This document shows, one piece after another, positions 11,867 through 32,532 of a stretch of DNA of 32,532 nt. Numbering within the stretch: position 1 is the stretch's first letter; each line of letters starts with the position of its first letter. Under the pieces are notes generated by a model. That model did no database searches and was not told the DNA's origin. It worked only from the letters and a program-made list of their open reading frames with translations. Both the position numbers and the translations under genes were made by a program. Origin of the DNA: an uncultured bacterium. GTDB taxonomy: Bacteria > Patescibacteriota > Minisyncoccia > Phycocordibacterales > CAIJYI01. The DNA lies in NCBI GenBank assembly GCA_903824855.1, contig CAIJYI010000040.1, forward strand, positions 1-32,532, written 5' to 3'.

Positions 11867-13141
11867 GTGGCAAATTTTCTTACTTTACAATCATTAAAAT
11901 CCTCATCAAGCGATATCGGTGTTCAGCCGATTAAGACTGTTTCGCAACTTCCCGTAGAAACTCCTGACTCCAAGATACTCCTACAACGCATTGAAAAGGA
12001 GGGTGTATTGGTCATCAAAGAAGACCCGGAAAAAGATTTCGACGAAATTCCGGTACCGGAAAAAGAAGAAGCGATTCCGGAAGTTGAGTCATCTGAGCCA
12101 AAAATTACCATTTCTAACGATTCATTTCCAAAAAGACAACTGCCCGATGAAATAAAACAACACTTCGAAAACAACAGTGCATCTTTCATCTCTTTCGCCA
12201 GACAAAAAGAATCTTCCTCTGTTCTTGGTGACGCCGAAAAGCAAGCACTTTGGGATAGAGCCTTGCTTTCTGAAGAATTTTTGGATGGAAGAATTCCTTT
12301 AGAGATAGGTGATGAATCAAAAAAAGGGGTTTCCTTTGTTCCCAAAAAACCAGAGCAAACCTTGGGAGGTGTTTTTCCTACCCGTGTTGTTTCTGAAACA
12401 TTAAAAGGTGTTGACGATGCCGGAATGATAGTATCCGGGCCCCCAAAAAACATCAAAGCAGTTGAAAAAACCGGGAGCGCGTGGCCGGAATACGTACCAA
12501 AAAAACCGGGGGATGTTGTAAATAAAGAAAAATACGCAGTAATGAATTCTGCTGTTGAAAAAAGTGAATCCGCACAATCTCCTGTTTTTGAAAAACCGAT
12601 TCATATAGAAACCCCTAACGAAAAGGAAAGAGAACCGGGGTTAGGTATACCAAAAAAACCAAAAACACAAAACGAACCGCTCGTTGTTTCCAAAAACAAC
12701 ACACCTGAAAAAATTGATGCCTTTATTGTCGCACAAAAGAAGGCTCTAACCCTTGATGATATTAAAAAAGAAACGATTCCTGAAGCAGAAGCAATCCATA
12801 TATTAAAAAAAACTGAAATTGGTGATTCCCTTGAAGAAAAAATTATTGACGTGCAGATGAGAACTATTTTTGAAAATGCTCCGGGTGGCGTGAGGTCTCA
12901 AATGGAAAAAATGCTTGCGAAGGAATTATTGACGGAGAAAGATCAAAACGAAGATTTAAATAATATCTGGAAAAAAAGACTGCGTGACTATATTTTAAAA
13001 CTCAAGGAACAGGGAAAGGGTGTATTTGAAGAAGTCGGAGCTACCGAACCAAAAGAAGGAGAAACGGTGCTTGATTACATCAGACGAATTTATTTGTCTA
13101 TTGTTCGAGCAGAGGTACTAAAAAACGCAGAAAAACAATAA
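11867..13141 (+). CDS. Uncharacterised low-complexity, charged protein with repeated KKP motifs (GTG start)
   Basis: 424-aa ORF; AGAAGGAG upstream but about 18 nt from the GTG; VPKKPEQ/VPKKPGD/IPKKPKT repeats; no signal peptide. Confidence 0.75.
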   Translation: MANFLTLQSLKSSSSDIGVQPIKTVSQLPVETPDSKILLQRIEKEGVLVIKEDPEKDFDEIPVPEKEEAIPEVESSEPKITISNDSFPKRQLPDEIKQHFENNSASFISFARQKESSSVLGDAEKQALWDRALLSEEFLDGRIPLEIGDESKKGVSFVPKKPEQTLGGVFPTRVVSETLKGVDDAGMIVSGPPKNIKAVEKTGSAWPEYVPKKPGDVVNKEKYAVMNSAVEKSESAQSPVFEKPIHIETPNEKEREPGLGIPKKPKTQNEPLVVSKNNTPEKIDAFIVAQKKALTLDDIKKETIPEAEAIHILKKTEIGDSLEEKIIDVQMRTIFENAPGGVRSQMEKMLAKELLTEKDQNEDLNNIWKKRLRDYILKLKEQGKGVFEEVGATEPKEGETVLDYIRRIYLSIVRAEVLKNAEKQ

Positions 13142-18978: not shown

Positions 18979-19998
18979 TTAAATATCGGCAATAAAAAAG
19001 GCGCAGTTACTCATACCGTTATCGTTCATAATACAAACGGGGTATTTAACGGCAGGGAAGTCGCTCGTTATATATTCATTAAAATGAGCTCGGAGATAGG
19101 TACTGCTGGCTACGGTTAATCCTGAGTTGGCCGGTATTATATCGGGAATATTCATCGTAAAAGCAAGTGTTTTTCCATCAGTAGAAGTAACGTTATAAAA
19201 AGTTTCACTGCCGGCAATAATTTTATTGGCTGATTTTGTAATTCCGGAGCCATGAATAATAACATTTACCTTTCCGGAACCATGATTCGGTTCTAAAGAG
19301 GCTATGACAACATTCTCACCAAGTCCGGCAACCGGCCCGGTTGGAATACTCGTCAAAGCGGTGCTTCCCGTCGGTTGTGTTCCTGATACTTTGCTTTTTG
19401 AAAGAGAATTCATTAAGGCTCTGGTTGAAGCACCAAAATATCCGGTCCCGGAGGAAAGTCCGTTCGGCGTAAGCACTTCACCTCGATGTTTTTCCTGCAA
19501 TTTAACGACCGCGGCTTTTGTTTTTGCACCAAAATAGGTCGTTTCATTCCCAGCAGAACCCACACCGGTTACTGAAACGACTGTATCCGTGTCTTCATTG
19601 AGGGCTTTTTGCAACAATAAAACTTGAGCATCAGTATCGCCGAGTTTCAGATTTTTCGTAAAAACATCGGTTCCGGAGGTTCCGGTACCTGATACTGTTG
19701 TTGAATTTGTGTTTGTTGTCGCAGGAACAAGGGTGCTTGGTTGACCCATTATTGAATAGAGAACGGAATCAGGAAGTTGACCTTTGAGTATCTTTTCCAT
19801 AAGGAGAAGTCTCGCTTTTCTCTCTTCTGCAGCTGCCGTACCGTCATCAACCGTTGGAATAAACTCAGTGACGGTTGTCGTCGACGTTGTAGAGGTGGTT
19901 CCAGCGACGGTTTGTCCTAAAACAACTCCGGAAAATGTTCCCCAAAAAAAGAAGAACCCGAGCACACCAAAAATAAATTTTATTTTATAATTTTTCAT
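18979..19998 (-). CDS. Exported protein with a peptidoglycan-binding (PG_binding_1-like) domain and a C-terminal IPT/TIG-like domain
   Basis: LGDTDAQVLLLQKALN..YFGAKTKAAVVKLQEKH..GYFGASTRALMNSL; IASLEPNHGSGKVNVIIHGSGI. Confidence 0.85.
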   Translation of the reverse strand: MKNYKIKFIFGVLGFFFFWGTFSGVVLGQTVAGTTSTTSTTTVTEFIPTVDDGTAAAEERKARLLLMEKILKGQLPDSVLYSIMGQPSTLVPATTNTNSTTVSGTGTSGTDVFTKNLKLGDTDAQVLLLQKALNEDTDTVVSVTGVGSAGNETTYFGAKTKAAVVKLQEKHRGEVLTPNGLSSGTGYFGASTRALMNSLSKSKVSGTQPTGSTALTSIPTGPVAGLGENVVIASLEPNHGSGKVNVIIHGSGITKSANKIIAGSETFYNVTSTDGKTLAFTMNIPDIIPANSGLTVASSTYLRAHFNEYITSDFPAVKYPVCIMNDNGMSNCAFFIADI

Positions 19999-22199: not shown

Positions 22200-24554
22200 A
22201 TGTTTTCGAATAGTATAAAGAGTACCATTGCAAAGATATTTATTCTTTTGGTTGTCACACCAATATTTTTCAGCGCGGTTGACACACATGCTCAAGCAGC
22301 TAATCCTCCAACAACAGCACAAGACGAGAAAAGTATTCCTGATTCTTTAAACCTTGACTGTGGGATTGGTACCATTGCCGCTTGTATTGTTTTATACACA
22401 ACGTGGGCTCTTTTTATAAAACTCCCCGGGTGGCTTCTGACTTTTGCCTCAAAAATCAGTAATACAATATTTGCTTATGGATTAAGTAGCGACACTTTTA
22501 ATCAACCCGGTTTTATTAATCCCGGTTGGGTAATTTGTCGTGATGTCGTCAATACTTTTTTCATCTTTGCTCTTCTCTACCTCGCAATAATGACGATTAT
22601 CGGAAAATTGGGTGGAGCAATGAAGTCGCAACTCGTTACTCTTATCATTGTCGCGATATTCATGAATTTCAGCATGTATATCACGCGCTTCGTGATAGAT
22701 GTTGGAAATGTCGTTGCTCTTGAGTTTTACAATGCTTTTCCTGATCCTCCACAAGGCTCTTATGTTATAACAATTCCGGGAATAGCGCAGAGGGATATTT
22801 TTGGCGGATTCTATGGAACGATAACACACGATATCATTAATATGACCAGCTCGTGGAGTAATGTTCAACTCAGTGAGCAGTGGCCATGGTACGTTTTCTT
22901 GTTTTTCTGCTTAGGTATTATTCAATTGGTTTTTATTTTTGTCATATTAGCGGCTTCATTTTTTATGGTTGCACGCGTAGCAACTCTATGGATATTAATG
23001 ATTGTTTCCCCTATCGCTTTTTTCGCTTATGGAATCCCTAAGTTTAGTGCAACATGGTCAACATGGACGGGGGAGCTTACGAAACAAGTCTTTTTTCCTG
23101 CGATTTTACTTTTCTTTATTTACCTCGCGATTTTGTTGAGCGATGCAACCGTGAAAACTTTTATGACCGCGGCCGGAAATTTTGAAAACGTAGATAATTC
23201 TGAGATATTTAGCAAATTAATTACAACAGCCCTTCATTTTGCTTGTGTGGCAGCCTTTTTACTTTATGGTCTTTCAAAAGCTAAATCAGGGGCGAGCCAT
23301 GCTGCCGTATATGCGAGTAAATATCTTGGTGGTGCCACCTCGTTTGGTTTGGGTGCCGGACTTGGTGTTGCGGCAGCAGGAATGAGAAAGGGTGCCGGAT
23401 CTTATGCTGAGTGGAAAAACAGAAGCTTATCGGATGAGGATAAGGCAAAAATGACCACAACGAGGTTTGGACGAATGCAACTTGCAGCGCTTGATAAAGC
23501 ACAGACGGCAAGCTTTGATATCAGAAATACAAAAACTTTTGGAAATACAATTGGTGCGGCGGCTGGACTTGGTGGAATTAATTTTGGCCAAGGTGGGGGG
23601 CAGGGTGGTTACGCAAAAGGTTTGGGTGAGCGATTGGCTGAAAATACAAAATACTACAAGAACCTTAAAACGGACGAGCAGAAAGCTGCCTTTATTCAAA
23701 ATCTCTCAGGTACTGGTATTTTGGGCGCCGGTCCTACAACTCTCATTAATCGAGATGACGCACCGAGACAGTTCTTCAACAGTCTTCCGGTGGCAGAACG
23801 ACAAAAACTTATCGCAAACTCAAAAGGAGACACACAAGCCTTCTTACAAAGAATCGGTAAAAGCCTCGGTGATAAATATTCTACGGATCAGTTATTGGAG
23901 TTATATAAAGCGGATGAACATAATCCAATTAAACAATCTGCTGTTATTAAAGACTTCTTGAACGGAAAGCAGGATGCCAGCGGAAACATTATTTCCGCTC
24001 CTCGAACTGAGAAAGAGATGACTGACATGTTGAAGAAGTTGTCGGTAACAGAAAGAGCTGAAATGGAAACAAGTCTGAAAGAAAGCCCTGTTGAATTAGA
24101 TAAGATTAAGACACTCAACCGTCAGATTCTTGAAAAACTAAAGGCAGAAAAACCGAAACAGTATGAAGCGGCGCTAAAAGAAACGGCCACCTATGAGAGG
24201 GAACAGAAATTCAAAGTATACAAAGACACTATTGATGAGAGTATAGCGAAATATCAGACAGCTTCTGACGCAGACAAACAGAATTTACAAAATAAAATCA
24301 ACGATGCACTTAATAATATCGACAGAAATAAGATTACAGAACTTAGTGGAGCCGTTCTTTCTCATGAATTAGTTGCGAAGAATTTAAAGAGGGAAGATCT
24401 TGATAAAATTACAAAATCAAACACGATAAGCATGTCGAGAGGGGAACAGGATGCAATGAAAACCAATGCCCTGAAGGGAAAAGATCAAGGGGTTATGGAT
24501 TTCTATAATTACGCTCCCGCAGCGAATAAAAACAAAAGGGCGAAGAAAAAATAA
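22200..24554 (+). CDS. VirB6/TrbL-like polytopic membrane protein with a long hydrophilic C-terminal tail
   Basis: Multiple TM segments in the first ~370 aa, then Gly/Ala-rich and charged ~400 aa; adjacent to PrgI/VirB4. Confidence 0.8.
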   Translation: MFSNSIKSTIAKIFILLVVTPIFFSAVDTHAQAANPPTTAQDEKSIPDSLNLDCGIGTIAACIVLYTTWALFIKLPGWLLTFASKISNTIFAYGLSSDTFNQPGFINPGWVICRDVVNTFFIFALLYLAIMTIIGKLGGAMKSQLVTLIIVAIFMNFSMYITRFVIDVGNVVALEFYNAFPDPPQGSYVITIPGIAQRDIFGGFYGTITHDIINMTSSWSNVQLSEQWPWYVFLFFCLGIIQLVFIFVILAASFFMVARVATLWILMIVSPIAFFAYGIPKFSATWSTWTGELTKQVFFPAILLFFIYLAILLSDATVKTFMTAAGNFENVDNSEIFSKLITTALHFACVAAFLLYGLSKAKSGASHAAVYASKYLGGATSFGLGAGLGVAAAGMRKGAGSYAEWKNRSLSDEDKAKMTTTRFGRMQLAALDKAQTASFDIRNTKTFGNTIGAAAGLGGINFGQGGGQGGYAKGLGERLAENTKYYKNLKTDEQKAAFIQNLSGTGILGAGPTTLINRDDAPRQFFNSLPVAERQKLIANSKGDTQAFLQRIGKSLGDKYSTDQLLELYKADEHNPIKQSAVIKDFLNGKQDASGNIISAPRTEKEMTDMLKKLSVTERAEMETSLKESPVELDKIKTLNRQILEKLKAEKPKQYEAALKETATYEREQKFKVYKDTIDESIAKYQTASDADKQNLQNKINDALNNIDRNKITELSGAVLSHELVAKNLKREDLDKITKSNTISMSRGEQDAMKTNALKGKDQGVMDFYNYAPAANKNKRAKKK

Positions 24555-25023: not shown

Positions 25024-25102
25024 TTGAACATTTTAAAAAAGGCAACCGATTTTCTTTGAAGGCTGTTTTATTCATGTTATATTTAAGTTGAGAGAAACAT
25101 TT

Positions 25103-25552
25103 ATGCAATATCACGTACCTCAATTTATTGAAGTGGAAGATAAGATATTTACCTTCATAACAATGAAGCAATTCCTCTATCTTCTTGGTGGAGGGGCTAT
25201 CTCCTATCTCGCTTATACCTACCTGATGATATATTTTGCTCTTCCGATAATCGCAGTTGCCGTTTCGTTTTCTCTTGCTCTTGCTTTCTATAAACCAAAC
25301 AATAAACCATTTATATTAATGGTTGAAGCATTTTTCTCTTATATTTTGTCTCCTCGTCTCTACATTTGGAAAAAAATACCAAAAACAAGAGAAGAGAAAT
25401 CAAAAGAAAAAGAGCAACCGGCAGCCTACATTCCTTCGTTATCCGAAAGTACACTCAAAGACCTTTCGTGGAGTCTCGATATTAAAGAACGTGACGGAGG
25501 AGGCACGGCACCAAAGGTGTCAAAAGGAATACCTTTATTGAAAGATTTATAA
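25103..25552 (+). CDS. PrgI family protein (T4SS inner-membrane component)
   Basis: MQYHVPQFIEVEDKIFTFITMKQFLYLLGGG; two TM; start set at ATG 25103 rather than TTG 25088. Confidence 0.88.
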   Translation: MQYHVPQFIEVEDKIFTFITMKQFLYLLGGGAISYLAYTYLMIYFALPIIAVAVSFSLALAFYKPNNKPFILMVEAFFSYILSPRLYIWKKIPKTREEKSKEKEQPAAYIPSLSESTLKDLSWSLDIKERDGGGTAPKVSKGIPLLKDL

Positions 25553-25562
25553 TTTAACAACG

Positions 25563-26207
25563 ATGCAAAAATCAAGACCGGCACAAGAATTTATACCGTT
25601 TAAAGAAATACGCGATGGTATTGTTATAATGAAAGACAATTCCTTTCGTGCTGTTCTTATGACCTCGTCTTTGAATCTTGCTTTGAAATCACAAGAGGAG
25701 CAGGAAGCCATCATCGCACAATTCCAAAATTTCCTTAATTCTCTCGAGTTTTCTATACAATTTTATATCCAATCCAGACGTTTAGATATTCGTCCTTACA
25801 TCGCCTCACTGCAAGAGAAGGAACGTGACCAAGTTAATGAGCTTATGAAAATTCAGACGCGGGAATATATTGATTTTATTAAGAACTTTACTGAAACGAC
25901 CAATATAATGTCTAAGAGTTTCTTTGTTGTTGTTCCTTACGCATCAAACCTTAGTTCATCAGTAACTCAGGGCAAATGGGGTTTTGCTTCCAAAACAGAC
26001 GATCGTTCAAAAACAAAAGAATGGCTTGAGAATTTTGAAGAAAGTAAGACCCAGCTTGAGCAAAGAGTGTCGATAGTCGAACAAGGTTTGTCCCGCTTCA
26101 GTATTCGCGTTGCACAACTTGGTACAGAAGAAGTCGTTGAGCTTTTTTATAAGATATTTAATCCGGGGGAATTGGATAAACCAATATCTCTTGAGTCTTC
26201 AAAATAA
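25563..26207 (+). CDS. TraC/VirB4 N-terminal-like protein encoded as a separate ORF
   Basis: FIPFKEIRDGIVIMKDNSFRAVLMTSSLNLALKSQEEQEAIIAQFQNFLNSLEFSIQFYIQSRRLD resembles the VirB4/TraC N-terminal region; 4 nt before the VirB4 ORF. Confidence 0.75.
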   Translation: MQKSRPAQEFIPFKEIRDGIVIMKDNSFRAVLMTSSLNLALKSQEEQEAIIAQFQNFLNSLEFSIQFYIQSRRLDIRPYIASLQEKERDQVNELMKIQTREYIDFIKNFTETTNIMSKSFFVVVPYASNLSSSVTQGKWGFASKTDDRSKTKEWLENFEESKTQLEQRVSIVEQGLSRFSIRVAQLGTEEVVELFYKIFNPGELDKPISLESSK

Positions 26208-26211
26208 AAAA

Positions 26212-28023
26212 ATGGGGTTTTTCGCAAAAAAAACTGAAAAAAAAGAAATCGTTCCAATTCTTCCGCAGGAAATATATGAATCCGGCGTTCTTGAGTTGCG
26301 TGACGTTCTCGCTCCCGCTGCTCTTAAAATTTCTCCAAAACAATTGAATCTGGGTGAAAAAATAGCCAGAACATTTTTTGTCATCTCTTATCCGAGATAT
26401 CTTTCAGACAACTGGTTTTCCCCAATAATCAACCTTGACCGTGTTTTTGATATTTCAATTTTTGTTCATCCGATAGATACGGGAACAGTTTTAAAACAAT
26501 TCCAAAAGAAAGTTACTGAGGTCCAAAGTCAGATTAACGAAAGGGAAGAGAAGGGGTTCGTAAGAGACCCTGTACTTGAAACTTCTTTTCATGATCTTGA
26601 AGAATTGCGTGACAAACTTCAGCAAGCAACAGAAAAACTCTATGACGTCGGACTTTATTTAACCATTTACGGAGCCGATGATGCCGAATTGGATAAATTT
26701 GAATCACAAATTAAATCTATTTTGGAATCAAAGTTAATTTATGTAAAACCGGCATTATTCCAACAGGAAATGGGTTTTCATAGTGTTATTCCGACAGGAT
26801 CAGATGAATTACAGGTTCATTCCAAACTGAATTCTTCTCCACTCTCAAGTCTTTTTCCTTTTGTTTCATTCGATCTCACTTCCGACAGAGGGATTCTCTA
26901 TGGGGTAAATCGCCACAATTCAAGTCTTGTTCTTTTTGATCGTTTCTCGCTTGAAAACTACAATTCTATTATTTTCGCGAAATCCGGTTCAGGAAAATCG
27001 TATACCACAAAGCTTGAAATATTAAGAACGTTGATGTTTGATACGGAAGTTATTGTTATTGACCCGGAAAAAGAATATGAGTACATGGCAGAGGCCACAG
27101 GAGGGAGGTATTTCAATATTTCTCTCACATCAGGCCATCATATTAATCCTTTTGATCTTCCTTTTCCAAGAGAAGATGAAACGGCTTCCGATGTTCTTCG
27201 CTCCCATATCATCAATCTTGTCGGTTTGTTTCGTATTATGTTTAGCGGTCTAACACCGGAAGAGGATGCTATTATCGACCGTGCGATAACAGAGACTTAC
27301 GCATTAAAAGATATTACCGCCGAATCAAATTTTGCAGAAGTCGAACCGCCGATTTTGGGCGACTTCGAGTTAATCCTCTCCGGAATGGAAGGTGCGGAAT
27401 CACTCGTTCAAAGACTCGCGAAATACACAAAAGGTACGTGGTCAAACTTCATCAACAAGCCATCAAACGTCGATATAAATAAGAAGTTTGTGGTATTTTC
27501 TGTGAGAGACATGGAGGACGAGTTGAAACCGGTTGCCATGTATATTATTACTCACTTTATTTGGAGTTCCATACGAAAAGAGCTTAAAAAGAGACTTTTG
27601 GTGATAGATGAGGCTTGGTGGATGATGAAATCAGAAGATACCGCCTCGTTTCTCTTTAGTCTAGCAAAAAGAGGAAGGAAGTATTTTCTCGGCATTGCTA
27701 CTATTACCCAAGATGTTGAAGACTTCTTACGAAGCCCTTATGGATTACCGATTATCACCAACTCTTCCATTCAGCTTCTCATGAAACAATCGCCGTCCTC
27801 GATTGATATGGTGCAAAAAACATTCAACCTAACAGATGAAGAGAAGTATCTGTTGTTGGAATCTGGGGTGGGGGAGGGTATTTTCTTCGCAGGATCAAAA
27901 CACGTTGCAATAAAAGTCATTTCCTCCTACACGGAAGACCAAATTATAACCTCTGATCCTTCACAAATTCTAGCAATCAAGAAATCAAAGGATGAATATG
28001 CTGAAATGGGGGGTGGAAGCTAA
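26212..28023 (+). CDS. VirB4/TraC-like conjugative transfer ATPase
   Basis: Walker A FAKSGSGKSYTTKLE; VIDPEKEYEYMAEATGG; Walker B LLVIDEAWWMM; TQDVEDFL. Start set at ATG 26212. Confidence 0.92.
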   Translation: MGFFAKKTEKKEIVPILPQEIYESGVLELRDVLAPAALKISPKQLNLGEKIARTFFVISYPRYLSDNWFSPIINLDRVFDISIFVHPIDTGTVLKQFQKKVTEVQSQINEREEKGFVRDPVLETSFHDLEELRDKLQQATEKLYDVGLYLTIYGADDAELDKFESQIKSILESKLIYVKPALFQQEMGFHSVIPTGSDELQVHSKLNSSPLSSLFPFVSFDLTSDRGILYGVNRHNSSLVLFDRFSLENYNSIIFAKSGSGKSYTTKLEILRTLMFDTEVIVIDPEKEYEYMAEATGGRYFNISLTSGHHINPFDLPFPREDETASDVLRSHIINLVGLFRIMFSGLTPEEDAIIDRAITETYALKDITAESNFAEVEPPILGDFELILSGMEGAESLVQRLAKYTKGTWSNFINKPSNVDINKKFVVFSVRDMEDELKPVAMYIITHFIWSSIRKELKKRLLVIDEAWWMMKSEDTASFLFSLAKRGRKYFLGIATITQDVEDFLRSPYGLPIITNSSIQLLMKQSPSSIDMVQKTFNLTDEEKYLLLESGVGEGIFFAGSKHVAIKVISSYTEDQIITSDPSQILAIKKSKDEYAEMGGGS

Positions 28024-28125: not shown

Positions 28126-28137
28126 TATAATGAATAT
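28126..28137 (+). promoter_or_regulatory. -10 TATAAT exactly 6 nt before ATG
   Basis: TATAAT 28126-28131; ATG 28138. Confidence 0.5.
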
Positions 28138-29151
28138 ATGAAAAAAAGATATTTTCCGTTAATTATTTTGCTGTTTTTTGGTGTGTGTGGTTACGCATTA
28201 GGGCAATCAGCATTAACCGGAATAGGTGGCACCGAAAGTAATGGTAACGCTGTTTCTTTGTCTGTTTCTCCTGAACACCCGAATCCAAACCAAAAGGTAA
28301 CAATAAAAGCACTTTCGTTTCAGGTAAATTTAGATAATACCATTATTTCTTGGTCTGTTGATGGTGTTGTAAAACTTTCCGGTATGGGGAAAAAAGAATT
28401 TAGTTTTACCACAGGATCAGTTGGAAAATCTTCAAAGATTGTTGTCTCAATGAATCCGGCAGATTTTGGACAAATCACAAAGGGAATAACGATAACACCG
28501 GCAGATATGGATGTTCTTTGGGAGGCAGATACTTATATACCCCCATTCTATAAAGGAAAAGCACTCCCTTCATCACAAAGTTCCGTTCGTGTTATTCCGT
28601 TCACGTCTTTTTCAGGAAAAGAGGGGTATTACAACTCTGCTGATTTAGTTTATAAATGGAAAAAAGGATATTTTGGAGATGCGGCGAATTCAGGTTATGG
28701 AAAAAATATTTTTGTGTTTAACACAGGCTACACATTCAACACTGACGACATAGAGGTTGTCGCCTCTACCTTAGAGACAGGAATATCTGTAAAAAAAATC
28801 GCATCCGTGTATATCTATAATCCAAAAATTACCTTTTATGAGAACAAGCCTCTACAGGGAGTACGGTACGAAAACTCTCTGGAAAACTCTTTCCTGTTCT
28901 CAAACAAAGAGTTTGTTGTTCATGCTGTGCCATATTTTTTCTCACTTGATGGAATAAACAACAATACCGCAGCATACAACTGGAAACTAGACGGGAAGAA
29001 ACTTGAAATAAATCCTGATAATAAAAATGAATTCACTTTTCAAAAACCAAGCGAGGGCTCAGGAAGTTTCCGGTTAAGTTTAGATATAGATAATACCGGT
29101 TACGATCTTCAATCTTCAACAAAAAGTCTTTCCATTATGTACTCAAATTAA
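28138..29151 (+). CDS. Exported protein with predicted Ig-like beta domains in the T4SS-like locus
   Basis: Start set at ATG 28138 (MKKRYFPLIILLFFGVCGYALGQ signal peptide); VSLSVSPEHPNPNQKVTIKALSF.. beta-rich. Confidence 0.82.
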   Translation: MKKRYFPLIILLFFGVCGYALGQSALTGIGGTESNGNAVSLSVSPEHPNPNQKVTIKALSFQVNLDNTIISWSVDGVVKLSGMGKKEFSFTTGSVGKSSKIVVSMNPADFGQITKGITITPADMDVLWEADTYIPPFYKGKALPSSQSSVRVIPFTSFSGKEGYYNSADLVYKWKKGYFGDAANSGYGKNIFVFNTGYTFNTDDIEVVASTLETGISVKKIASVYIYNPKITFYENKPLQGVRYENSLENSFLFSNKEFVVHAVPYFFSLDGINNNTAAYNWKLDGKKLEINPDNKNEFTFQKPSEGSGSFRLSLDIDNTGYDLQSSTKSLSIMYSN

Positions 29152-29160
29152 TAAGGAATT

Positions 29161-30459
29161 ATGACAAAAAAACAGCTTTATATAATAGTGGGAATATTTG
29201 CGATAGTCGCGATTGGATTCCTTGTTGCCGTATTTCTCATCACAGGGGGAGGGAAAACACCGGCAGGAACTACTTCGACAAATCCTTTTGTTAATTTTTC
29301 TCCCTTTGGTAAACCGAGCGCTAATATTACAACCAATACCGGCGAAAACACTGCGGGAACAAACACTCCGACGGGAAATGGAGAAATAATTCCTATACAA
29401 ACAGGAAGCTTATCGCTCTTGAGACAGATTACTCCGAATCCGGTAGCGGGAATATTTCCAATAAACAGAATAGGGAAATCCTATATTGATTTTATTGAAA
29501 AAGAAACCGGAAACATTTTTGAAACACGGATAGCTGATATGCAAATGAATAGACTCTCAAATTCCATTATGCCGAGAATTTTTGAAGCATATTTTGCAAA
29601 TGGCGGTAATTCCATTGTTGTGCGCTATCTTAAAAACAACAGTGATGTTATTTCTTCTTTTGATCTTGATATTTCTAAATCAAAAATTGTTCCGGGGAGT
29701 AGTGCCACGAGCACAAGCGCAATGCCGAGCGGACGTTTTCTCCCCGCTGGAGTTATGGATATGAAAATATCTTCTGATATGAATTCGGCATTTTTTATGA
29801 CAAGAAACGCCGGCTTTAAAGACAGGAATTCTTTCGGCTCTGTTTTTGATTTCAATAAAAACACCGTGTCGGAAGTTTTTCAGTCAGCGTTCTCAGAGTG
29901 GCTTCCGGTATACTTTAATTCAGCCGAGGTTCTCCTTCAAACAAAAGCTTCTCAAAAAGTTCCCGGATTCCTTTATTCGCTCAACATAAAAACGGGTGTA
30001 CTTCAGAAAGTAATGGGGGATATAAACGGACTCACCACACTTCCAAGTCCCGATGGTCAAAAAATTCTTTATTCAGAAAGCACAAAAGGTGGTATGACGC
30101 TTCATGTTTACAATAGGGCGAATGAAACAACAACAGATCTCCCGAAACAAACGTTACCCGAAAAGTGTGTCTGGACAAAAGACGGCTTGTTTATCTATTG
30201 TGCTATCTCCAACACAATAACAAGCAGTGAGTATCCTGACACCTGGTATCAAGGAATCACATCATTCTCTGATAATATCTGGAAAATAAACACACAAACA
30301 GGAATTTCTGCGATTATTCTTACTACGTCAAGCTTCACACCACAATCAATGGACATGACCCATCTCACACTTTCACCCCTTGAGGATTATCTCTTCTTTA
30401 TAAACAAAAAAGATTCAACTCCGTGGCTATACGACTTAAGAAGTGTTGGGTTACAATAA
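29161..30459 (+). CDS. Membrane-anchored protein with a beta-propeller (WD40/TolB-like) ectodomain
   Basis: N-terminal TM; LTTLPSPDGQKILYSESTKGGMTLHVYN, MTHLTLSPLEDYLFFINKKDSTPWLYDL blades. Confidence 0.78.
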   Translation: MTKKQLYIIVGIFAIVAIGFLVAVFLITGGGKTPAGTTSTNPFVNFSPFGKPSANITTNTGENTAGTNTPTGNGEIIPIQTGSLSLLRQITPNPVAGIFPINRIGKSYIDFIEKETGNIFETRIADMQMNRLSNSIMPRIFEAYFANGGNSIVVRYLKNNSDVISSFDLDISKSKIVPGSSATSTSAMPSGRFLPAGVMDMKISSDMNSAFFMTRNAGFKDRNSFGSVFDFNKNTVSEVFQSAFSEWLPVYFNSAEVLLQTKASQKVPGFLYSLNIKTGVLQKVMGDINGLTTLPSPDGQKILYSESTKGGMTLHVYNRANETTTDLPKQTLPEKCVWTKDGLFIYCAISNTITSSEYPDTWYQGITSFSDNIWKINTQTGISAIILTTSSFTPQSMDMTHLTLSPLEDYLFFINKKDSTPWLYDLRSVGLQ

Positions 30460-30463
30460 AAAA

Positions 30464-31555
30464 ATGAGAGATTTTATAACCAAAAAACGTATTTCATCTT
30501 TCCTCGGATTGTTTTTTCTGGCATTCGTTCTTCTTGCACCAATTCAAAGTCTTTTTGCCGCCACGGAATATTGCCAAGCTGCTTGGACGGGTACTGACCC
30601 GAATAATTATTTTTCATGTTACACCACGCTCTCTGCTTGTCAGAATACTTCTTGCTCAAACGGAGTACCTTTTAGTTGCCATTGTGTTCCTTATGACAGA
30701 AGCACAAACACAACGCCCGGCAACACAACTCTGACCAATACACAGACGAGTAATACAACACAAACTCAATCTTCAGCCAAAGGATATGCACTCCTTGCTC
30801 CAATTCCAACAATTACGAGTGGGGAAGTTCCTTCTCTGGCTGTTTATATGAAGGCGCTTATTGTCGTGATTGTCGGTCTTGCTATTGTTCTTGCTGTTGT
30901 AATGATTCTTGTTGGTGGAATCGGATACGTCCTTGCAGCCTCTCCTTCTGCGATGTCCACAGGAAAAGGGTACATAACAAACGCTCTTATCGGTCTTTTT
31001 CTCGCTATTTTTTCTTATCTTCTTCTTTATACAATAAACCCCGACTTAACCGTGGTAGGATTAAATATTGAAAAACTCGATGTTAGTGGGTGGAGTGGTG
31101 GCGGTGGGAGTAGTGGCGGAGGTGGCGGTGGGAGTGGTGGTAGTGGGAATGGAAGCTGTTCTCCTGTACCTTCCGGCCCATGTTCTGTAGACAACCTCAC
31201 TCCCGTATTTGGAGATAATGCAACAAAAGCATCGGGGATTTGTAACGGGGAGAGTAGTGGAAACGCTACAATCGCCAGCAGGAGCGACGTTTGTGCAGAT
31301 GGAAACTCTGTCTCATACGGATTATTCCAAATAAACATAAGTGCAAATCCTATTGGTGGCTTTGATTGTCCTAAGGCTTTTACCTCCGCTTACACAGGAA
31401 GTAACCACTCTTGCAGGGTAAAAGACCAAGCTTTATTTAATCAGTGTGTGGCGACGGCTAAAAATCCGGGTATGAATATTGCAAAAGCGGCATCAATGTC
31501 ACATGGTGGTAGTAGTTGGCGTCCATGGGGGGCAAACAAAAAATGTGGTTTTTAA
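30464..31555 (+). CDS. VirB2-like pilin domain fused via a Gly/Ser linker to a lysozyme/lytic transglycosylase-like domain
   Basis: ATG 30464; GYALLAPIPT..YMKALIVVIVGLAIVLAVVMILVGGIGYVLA..TINPDL; SGGGGSSGGGGGGSGGSGNG linker; GICNGESSGNATIASRSD..SYGLFQINI..NIAKAASMSHGGSSWRPWGANKKC. Confidence 0.85.
   Translation: MRDFITKKRISSFLGLFFLAFVLLAPIQSLFAATEYCQAAWTGTDPNNYFSCYTTLSACQNTSCSNGVPFSCHCVPYDRSTNTTPGNTTLTNTQTSNTTQTQSSAKGYALLAPIPTITSGEVPSLAVYMKALIVVIVGLAIVLAVVMILVGGIGYVLAASPSAMSTGKGYITNALIGLFLAIFSYLLLYTINPDLTVVGLNIEKLDVSGWSGGGGSSGGGGGGSGGSGNGSCSPVPSGPCSVDNLTPVFGDNATKASGICNGESSGNATIASRSDVCADGNSVSYGLFQINISANPIGGFDCPKAFTSAYTGSNHSCRVKDQALFNQCVATAKNPGMNIAKAASMSHGGSSWRPWGANKKCGF
31083..31150 (+). repeat. 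Low-complexity GGT/GGC/AGT codon tract encoding the poly-Gly/Ser linker
   Basis: gttagtgggtggagtggtggcggtgggagtagtggcggaggtggcggtgggagtggtggtagtggg. Confidence 0.8.
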
Positions 31556-31582: not shown

Positions 31583-32176
31583 ATGAATAAAAAAACTCTT
31601 ATTATTGTAAATATTACTGTTTTAGTTTTTATTGTCGGTGGTTTTATTTTTTGGAAATTATCACAAAAAACTCCCGTTGTGAATAATCCGGTTACACAAA
31701 ACCCTTCAACGCAAACCCCTACAAAAAACACAAACCAACAAACAACCGCCCCAATTGTTCAGCAGGGAGAAACCGCCACAACCACAGAAGAAACACCACA
31801 AACAACAACTTCTGATAAAATTACCATAAAAACAATGAGTGGTGACCGAATTAAAGTCGTTGATTTTTATCAAAATCCATACACCCAGATTTTTGACCCG
31901 CAAAATGATGCAGTAATAAAAGAGGGTGCGAACTATTCCATCGTATATTATGTAAAGGATCAGAGTTTTACTATTACCTTATTGGGGGGTGATCTTCCAA
32001 CAACAAGAAATGAGGCGGAAAATGCGTTTTTGGAAAAACTTGGTATTTCAAAAGAAGAGGCGTGTCAGTTTTATGTGACTCTTGGTGTGCCGTTCTTTGT
32101 AAGCGAAAAAGCTTCGGGGACTGATTACGGTTTAAGCTTCTGTCCAAAAAGTATTGCTTTACCTAAAAACCTTTAA
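31583..32176 (+). CDS. Membrane-anchored hypothetical protein with a Thr/Gln/Pro-rich linker
   Basis: KKTLIIVNITVLVFIVGGFIFWKL anchor; ectodomain with ISKEEACQFYVTLGVPFFVSEKASG..LSFCPKS. Confidence 0.8.
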   Translation: MNKKTLIIVNITVLVFIVGGFIFWKLSQKTPVVNNPVTQNPSTQTPTKNTNQQTTAPIVQQGETATTTEETPQTTTSDKITIKTMSGDRIKVVDFYQNPYTQIFDPQNDAVIKEGANYSIVYYVKDQSFTITLLGGDLPTTRNEAENAFLEKLGISKEEACQFYVTLGVPFFVSEKASGTDYGLSFCPKSIALPKNL

Positions 32177-32180
32177 TTCT

Positions 32181-32532
32181 ATGTTTAAAAAGACGACATA
32201 TTTTCTCTCCATACCGTTTCTTTTTTTATCGCAATTCATTTCTGCAATTGCCGCCAATGAGGGGTATACTCTTCTTGCGCCGATTCCAACGGTTGCCAAC
32301 AGTACTAATACCTCTTTTGTTGAATACATGAAGGGTTTGTACACACTTTTTGTCGGCCTCTCTATTGTTTTTGCGGTCATTATGATTGTTTTAGGGGGAA
32401 TGGAATATATTTTAGCAGAAACACCATTCGCGAAGGGTGGGGGAAAAGAAAAAATAATGAATGCGATTACCGTTCTCCTGTTGGTTCTTATTGCATCAAT
32501 TATTTTACATACCATCAATCCTGATTTATTGA
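32181..32532 (+). CDS. VirB2-like pilin paralogue, truncated by the window edge
   Basis: MFKKTTYFLSIPFLFLSQFISAIAANEGYTLLAPIPTVANSTNTSFVEYMKGLYTLFVGLSIVFAVIMIVLGGMEYILAETP..TINPDLL; not in the ORF track because no stop is reached. Confidence 0.85.
   Translation, partial: MFKKTTYFLSIPFLFLSQFISAIAANEGYTLLAPIPTVANSTNTSFVEYMKGLYTLFVGLSIVFAVIMIVLGGMEYILAETPFAKGGGKEKIMNAITVLLLVLIASIILHTINPDLL

Follow-up and report, generated by a model that had tools for sequence, protein, structure and literature searches.

A VirB2-like pilin joined to a lysozyme-like domain in a type IV secretion locus shared across Patescibacteria

The window, meaning the whole 32,532-nucleotide stretch analysed here, is the complete contig C40 of a genome of approximately 1.1 Mb assembled in 45 contigs. 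It carries genes of a type IV secretion system (T4SS), among which lies a single reading frame joining a pilin module to a lysozyme-like domain. The features of this locus and the parts of the fusion gene are as follows:

22200 to 24554, forward strand: polytopic protein, weak VirB6 candidate (TM-rich N-terminal half by eye; NCBIfam CD3337/EF1877 at E 0.003, far below the cut-off)
25100 to 25552, forward strand: PrgI, VirB3-like (Pfam PF12666, 29.9 bits, cut-off 27)
25563 to 26207, forward strand: VirB4 N-terminal or TrsD-like protein (NCBIfam matches below the cut-off, VirB4_plasma at E 3e-13 and TrsD at E 5e-7)
26203 to 28023, forward strand: VirB4 ATPase, C-terminal part (NCBIfam CD1110-family VirB4, 369 bits, cut-off 325)
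28132 to 29151, forward strand: secreted PKD-like protein, syntenic in G001
29161 to 30459, forward strand: one-TM beta-propeller-like protein, whose homologues adjoin the fusion in Moranbacteria
30464 to 31555, forward strand: pilin-muramidase fusion gene, 363 aa (reading frame, Pfam and relatives)
30464 to 30559, forward strand: signal peptide or first hydrophobic segment, aa 1-32 (sequence; AlphaFold2 helix 2-29)
30566 to 30697, forward strand: Cys-rich segment, aa ~35-78 (sequence and alignment A2)
30851 to 31030, forward strand: T4SS_pilin (VirB2-like) two-TM module, aa 130-189 (Pfam PF18895)
31094 to 31159, forward strand: Gly/Ser-rich linker, aa ~211-232 (sequence)
31160 to 31552, forward strand: SLT_3 lysozyme-like domain, aa ~233-363 (Pfam PF18896, invariant columns and AlphaFold2)
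31583 to 32176, forward strand: TM1p, a conserved one-TM protein of 197 aa, found 3' of the lysozyme gene in 23 of 27 loci
32181 to 32532, forward strand: second T4SS_pilin gene, ending with the contig (Pfam; syntenic relative in G001)

VirB4 is thus encoded in two parts. The gene order in G001 (L137), the second genome of the genus, matches that of the window: prgI, virB4, PKD-like, propeller-like, pilin plus SLT, TM1p, and pilin plus a second module. There, the counterpart of the truncated second pilin gene runs on into a putative zinc-peptidase module; the rest of the window's gene was not found elsewhere in its own genome. The same genome also encodes plain pilin arrays and one other SLT-domain protein, on contig C37, which could be VirB1. 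Upstream of the T4SS genes, at 18979-19998 on the reverse strand, lies a gene for a protein with a weak PG_binding_1 match.

The reading frame of the fusion is uninterrupted from its ATG at 30464 to its stop at 31555. It opens with the signal or TM segment MRDFITKKRISSFLGLFFLAFVLLAPIQSLFA, followed by the Cys-rich segment, which several homologues share, and by a two-TM module running from GYALLAPIPT to TINPDL, with helices predicted by AlphaFold2 at residues 125-157 and 161-191. The linker that follows, WSGGGGSSGGGGGGSGGSGNGS, is embedded in a stretch (residues 195-229) with pLDDT below 50 in the full-length model, and the lysozyme-like domain carries GESSGN..SYGLFQIN, comprising the candidate catalytic Glu E263 and the motif S284-x-G-L-x-Q-I-N291. 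A sequence-only reading of this DNA had described precisely such a fusion, and the reading frame, Pfam and relatives bear out each of its elements, from the signal peptide to the lysozyme motifs. A pilin-family and a lysozyme/SLT-family domain are thus combined in one protein, inside a T4SS locus with virB4 and prgI/virB3, and this combination is conserved across Patescibacteria. That reading was correct on the fusion and its domain families; it overlooked their generality, the second, putatively peptidase-bearing pilin and the conserved one-TM neighbor. The architecture is real and conserved and is built from known parts. In canonical T4SSs, the transglycosylase (VirB1) and the pilin (VirB2) are separate proteins.

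For the pilin module, PF18895 (T4SS_pilin) matched the full protein at E 1.4e-4 and the isolated N-terminal half at E 5.3e-5. These scores of 22-24 bits lie below the cut-off of 26.6, whereas a genome-wide search placed the same protein above it, and relatives matched the family at E values down to 6e-14. TrbC/VirB2 was also matched by 12 of 55 long pilin ORFs. Like members of the VirB2/T4SS_pilin families (PF18895, PF04956), the fusion has a predicted signal peptide, two predicted hydrophobic helices separated by a short positively charged loop and an INPDL-type end, occurs in multiple copies and resides in a T4SS neighborhood; unlike them, it has a Cys-rich N-terminal extension and approximately 150 additional residues with an enzyme domain. 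From the charge of the loop, we infer that both ends of the pilin module lie outside the membrane. PF18895 and PF18896 are consecutive accessions, which suggests that Pfam curators perhaps met the two families together.

The C-terminal domain very likely belongs to the lysozyme superfamily. SLT_3 (PF18896, "lysozyme like domain") matched aa 251-356 of the fusion at E 8.4e-5, and the isolated domain scored 27.2-27.7 bits against a gathering cut-off of 27. Although these single-sequence scores are marginal, the family evidence is strong, since 19 of the 20 homologous domains match SLT_3, at E values down to 6.8e-22, and five match classical SLT. All 20 aligned domains share E263-S264, G266, S284, G286-L287, Q289-I290-N291 and W355 without exception. 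AlphaFold2, proposed in the sequence-only reading as a check on the lysozyme assignment, returned a confident model of the isolated domain (pLDDT 93.9, pTM 0.87), in which a long helix ends at E263, and gave nothing to refute that assignment. A single-sequence search of solved structures with the fusion found nothing relevant; with the domain profile, the sole meaningful neighbors were c-type lysozymes, at E 0.03 and worse. Foldseek comparison of the domain model with the PDB gave eight matches, all to MltE (E 0.95-6), and SLT-domain proteins led the viral matches (E 0.03-0.8). Most of these weak matches are to SLT, lysozyme or MltE proteins, and as every E value exceeds 0.001, the fold assignment leans mainly on sequence profiles. 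The full-length model was uninformative against the PDB, its matches being driven by poorly modelled helices. The domain resembles SLT_3 and, remotely, c-type lysozyme and MltE in its Glu-Ser motif at the end of a helix, its G-[LI]-[FY]-Q-I-N motif and its conserved C-terminal Trp. It differs in its extra Cys residues and in S284, which aligns with the second catalytic acid of c-type lysozymes, Asp52. The domain is probably catalytically active, and the Ser in place of Asp52 suggests a one-acid chemistry like that of lytic transglycosylases; that it is such an enzyme and not a hydrolase is a guess.

G001 harbors the same fusion in the same place, with 42% identity overall. A single-sequence scan of genome contigs with the fusion retrieved no relatives, whereas a profile-based scan identified 16 loci in Patescibacteria, among them Moran-, Doudna-, Nomura- and Ryanbacteria. 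Of these loci, 10 hold the complete fusion, two have it broken inside the gene, two have it truncated by a contig end and two lack it. Two Moranbacteria copies considered as unfused were rejected as such, owing to an N-gap within the gene (L132) and a missing TM1 stretch (L139). Fusions of pilin and SLT_3 were seen in Moran-, Doudna-, Ryan-, Nomura- and other Paceibacteria. The sequence-only reading would have fallen had the pairing been absent from relatives; it recurs in independent genomes, which rules out an assembly artefact or a chance match. The lysozyme subfamily occurs in 20 of 384 genomes of the class, being clearly pilin-fused in 17, a remnant in one (L153) and unfused in two. Counting the remnant, 18 of 20 are fused in the class, against one of seven loci elsewhere in the phylum. 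The enzyme can therefore do without the fusion, which is largely confined to this class. Within the order, only 12 of the 247 genomes examined carry SLT_3, and this particular enzyme is accordingly not universal there. Homologues L142, L144 and L172-L175 have other TM anchors instead of the pilin module. In L142, L144, L172 and L173, the lysozyme domain stands at the end of a long protein that is rich in Ala and Pro and contains internal TM segments, and in L142 and L144 the gene lies directly after virB4, where the pilin fusion would stand.

Pilin modules in the order are also joined to other wall hydrolases. Among query-like pilin frames from other genera of the order, 30 of 50 are at least 250 aa long, far above the size of a plain pilin, and six of the scanned long pilin ORFs carry classical SLT (E 2e-14 to 7e-11), M15_4 (8e-13), VanY (1e-6) or M23 (4e-6, just below the cut-off) domains. 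Many others contain modules with an H..D..H-x-H pattern resembling LAS-type zinc peptidases. Comparison of the pilin-fused neighboring modules A5, A6 and A7 with Pfam, PHROGs, PDB profiles and by hhalign yielded no significant match; at the level of motifs, they are putative M15/LAS peptidases. In approximately 10 loci (L033/L137, L131, L132, L133, L135, L140, L146/L113, L117, L016/L092 and L035/L125), the pilin-muramidase is adjacent or nearly adjacent to such a second, putative-peptidase pilin fusion. On a tree of short modules, the fused pilin modules group largely apart from those of plain arrays, with 16 label changes where shuffled labels gave at least 40, a pattern that a specialised subunit would produce. 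As the modules were sampled partly by ORF length, this separation is indicative only.

If the lysozyme has an inhibitor or an adaptor, TM1p is the strongest candidate. In searches of the class and phylum, the 23 loci with TM1p directly downstream of the lysozyme include all eight that lack a pilin module, and four pilin-lysozyme loci are without it. Within the order, only four of 118 genomes yield a convincing TM1p that follows a gene for a pilin-muramidase, and in one of these, G071, the lysozyme-like motif is recognized at the pattern level only. In G071 (L185), TM1p is itself fused to a peptidase-like module, and an adaptor therefore fits better than an inhibitor. No match of TM1p to known lysozyme inhibitors was seen. 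Matches of TM1p to Tir_receptor_C and YidC were discarded as low-complexity, and a G067 match to the TM1p profile was discarded since its ORF reads as a cyclophilin. The outward domain of TM1p is conserved and ends in SFC. An orphan copy of the family with no adjoining lysozyme (L188) lies in the window's own genome (G000), on contig C36 at 11934-12296.

Taken together, the fusion is somewhat more probably than otherwise a muramidase tethered to the membrane or the pilus base and doing the job of VirB1; we infer its topology, its catalysis, its docking on the T4SS and its target wall. The signal peptide and the two-TM module would leave both the Cys-rich N-terminal segment and the lysozyme-like domain on the outer side of the membrane; the short loop that joins the TM segments and bears Lys would face inward. 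Through its pilin module, the enzyme may be held on the T4SS, either at the base of the pilus or in the role of a minor pilin, and the flexible Gly/Ser arm would give the catalytic domain access to the wall, where it would cleave glycan strands beside the channel. The second pilin fusion with its putative peptide-cleaving domain, often located next door, would cut the cross-links, and in this respect the pair is likened to the two-domain (SLT plus peptidase) VirB1 of Gram-positive bacteria. As in VirB1 and its Gram-positive counterparts (TraG of pIP501, TrsG and CD419), a lysozyme/SLT-type domain within a T4SS cluster is the predicted opener of peptidoglycan. However, VirB1-like proteins stand alone or are joined to CHAP, whereas the SLT_3 domain of the window is joined to a pilin, and the peptide-cleaving part, unlike in the Gram-positive proteins, would sit on a second pilin fusion. 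Counting against this reading, the eight lysozyme loci outside the order without a pilin module indicate that a pilus is not required for the enzyme to function, and the SLT-domain protein on contig C37 may itself be a VirB1.

According to the accessible text of a survey of patescibacterial T4SSs, these bacteria have VirB2 arrays and few VirB1 proteins, most VirB2-bearing genomes are without VirB1, and VirB1 was judged dispensable for the pilus; lysozyme and peptidase genes just downstream of virB4 in S. epibionticum are stated there to be essential for epibiotic growth (PMC12102498). The fusions would offer another answer to the missing VirB1, namely a wall-cutting function placed covalently on pilins and overlooked by VirB1 profiles. 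The locus shares with the known arrays (Quinonero-Coronel 2025; S. epibionticum) several divergent pilins near virB4, but hydrolase fusions go unmentioned in the accessible text of the former; the same holds for pilin-hydrolase fusions in the accessible text of a 2025 nomenclature review (PMC12857230) and a Tn-seq paper (PMC10633639). Full-text literature searches, whose coverage excludes most subscription journals, returned no description of such fusions. The fusion is a concrete candidate for passing the secretion channel through peptidoglycan in ultrasmall epibionts, the T4SS in question being essential for growth of a cultivated relative. A metatranscriptomic study of Paceibacteria that parasitise archaea predicted structures for highly expressed genes, and those of T4SS pilins and of peptidoglycan-binding proteins were among them (PMC10936435).

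The sequence-only reading also envisaged a muramidase at the pilus tip that could open host peptidoglycan. In this alternative, the fused subunit would be incorporated in or attached to the growing pilus, at its tip or along its shaft, and the muramidase would open the host wall at contact. VirB2 topology would expose the C-terminus, Patescibacteria live on other cells, the plain arrays of the own genome could supply the shaft, and S. epibionticum cannot do without its pilin arrays according to the accessible text of PMC10633639. That a pilin with an appendage of approximately 150 residues polymerises is nevertheless supposition, the lysozyme also occurs without a pilin, and the hosts of the lineage may include archaea that lack peptidoglycan (PMC10936435), leaving such a weapon unlikely. 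A tethered VirB1-like enzyme must also be weighed against an ordinary wall-remodelling enzyme, functionally unconnected with pilus and T4SS, that borrowed a pilin-derived two-TM anchor. The separation of fused from plain modules on the tree and the different TM anchors of L142, L144 and L172-L175 would suit this reading, but the fusion adjoins virB4 and prgI both here and in G001, even the pilin-less L142 and L144 adjoin virB4, and unrelated hydrolases are repeatedly joined to the same pilin module; we regard it as distinctly unlikely.

The constancy of TM1p after the lysozyme, including in all pilin-less loci, and its confinement within the order to spots after pilin-muramidase genes, save for the C36 orphan, would also be expected if the muramidase targeted rivals or hosts and TM1p, membrane-anchored and outward-facing, inhibited it for self-protection. 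Such an effector pair is improbable, given the fusion of TM1p to a peptidase-like module in G071, the lack of any match seen to known inhibitors and the four pilin-lysozyme loci without TM1p. A wider scenario, conceivable but unlikely, is a two-part perforator built from pilins, in which a muramidase-tipped pilin and its peptidase-tipped neighbor, with TM1p holding or restraining the muramidase, would be brought by the pilus as wall-opening tools to a partner cell.

In this order, the pilin module seems to serve generally to anchor surface proteins. Proteins of 520-906 aa that combine a pilin module with fibronectin-like or PKD-like repeats, M15, VanY, M23, beta-helix or dockerin parts were observed at L091, L108, L031, L020, L097 and L095. 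In the window's own genome, tandem plain T4SS_pilin genes lie at the end of contig C7 and at the start of contig C17, and probably form one array broken by the assembly.
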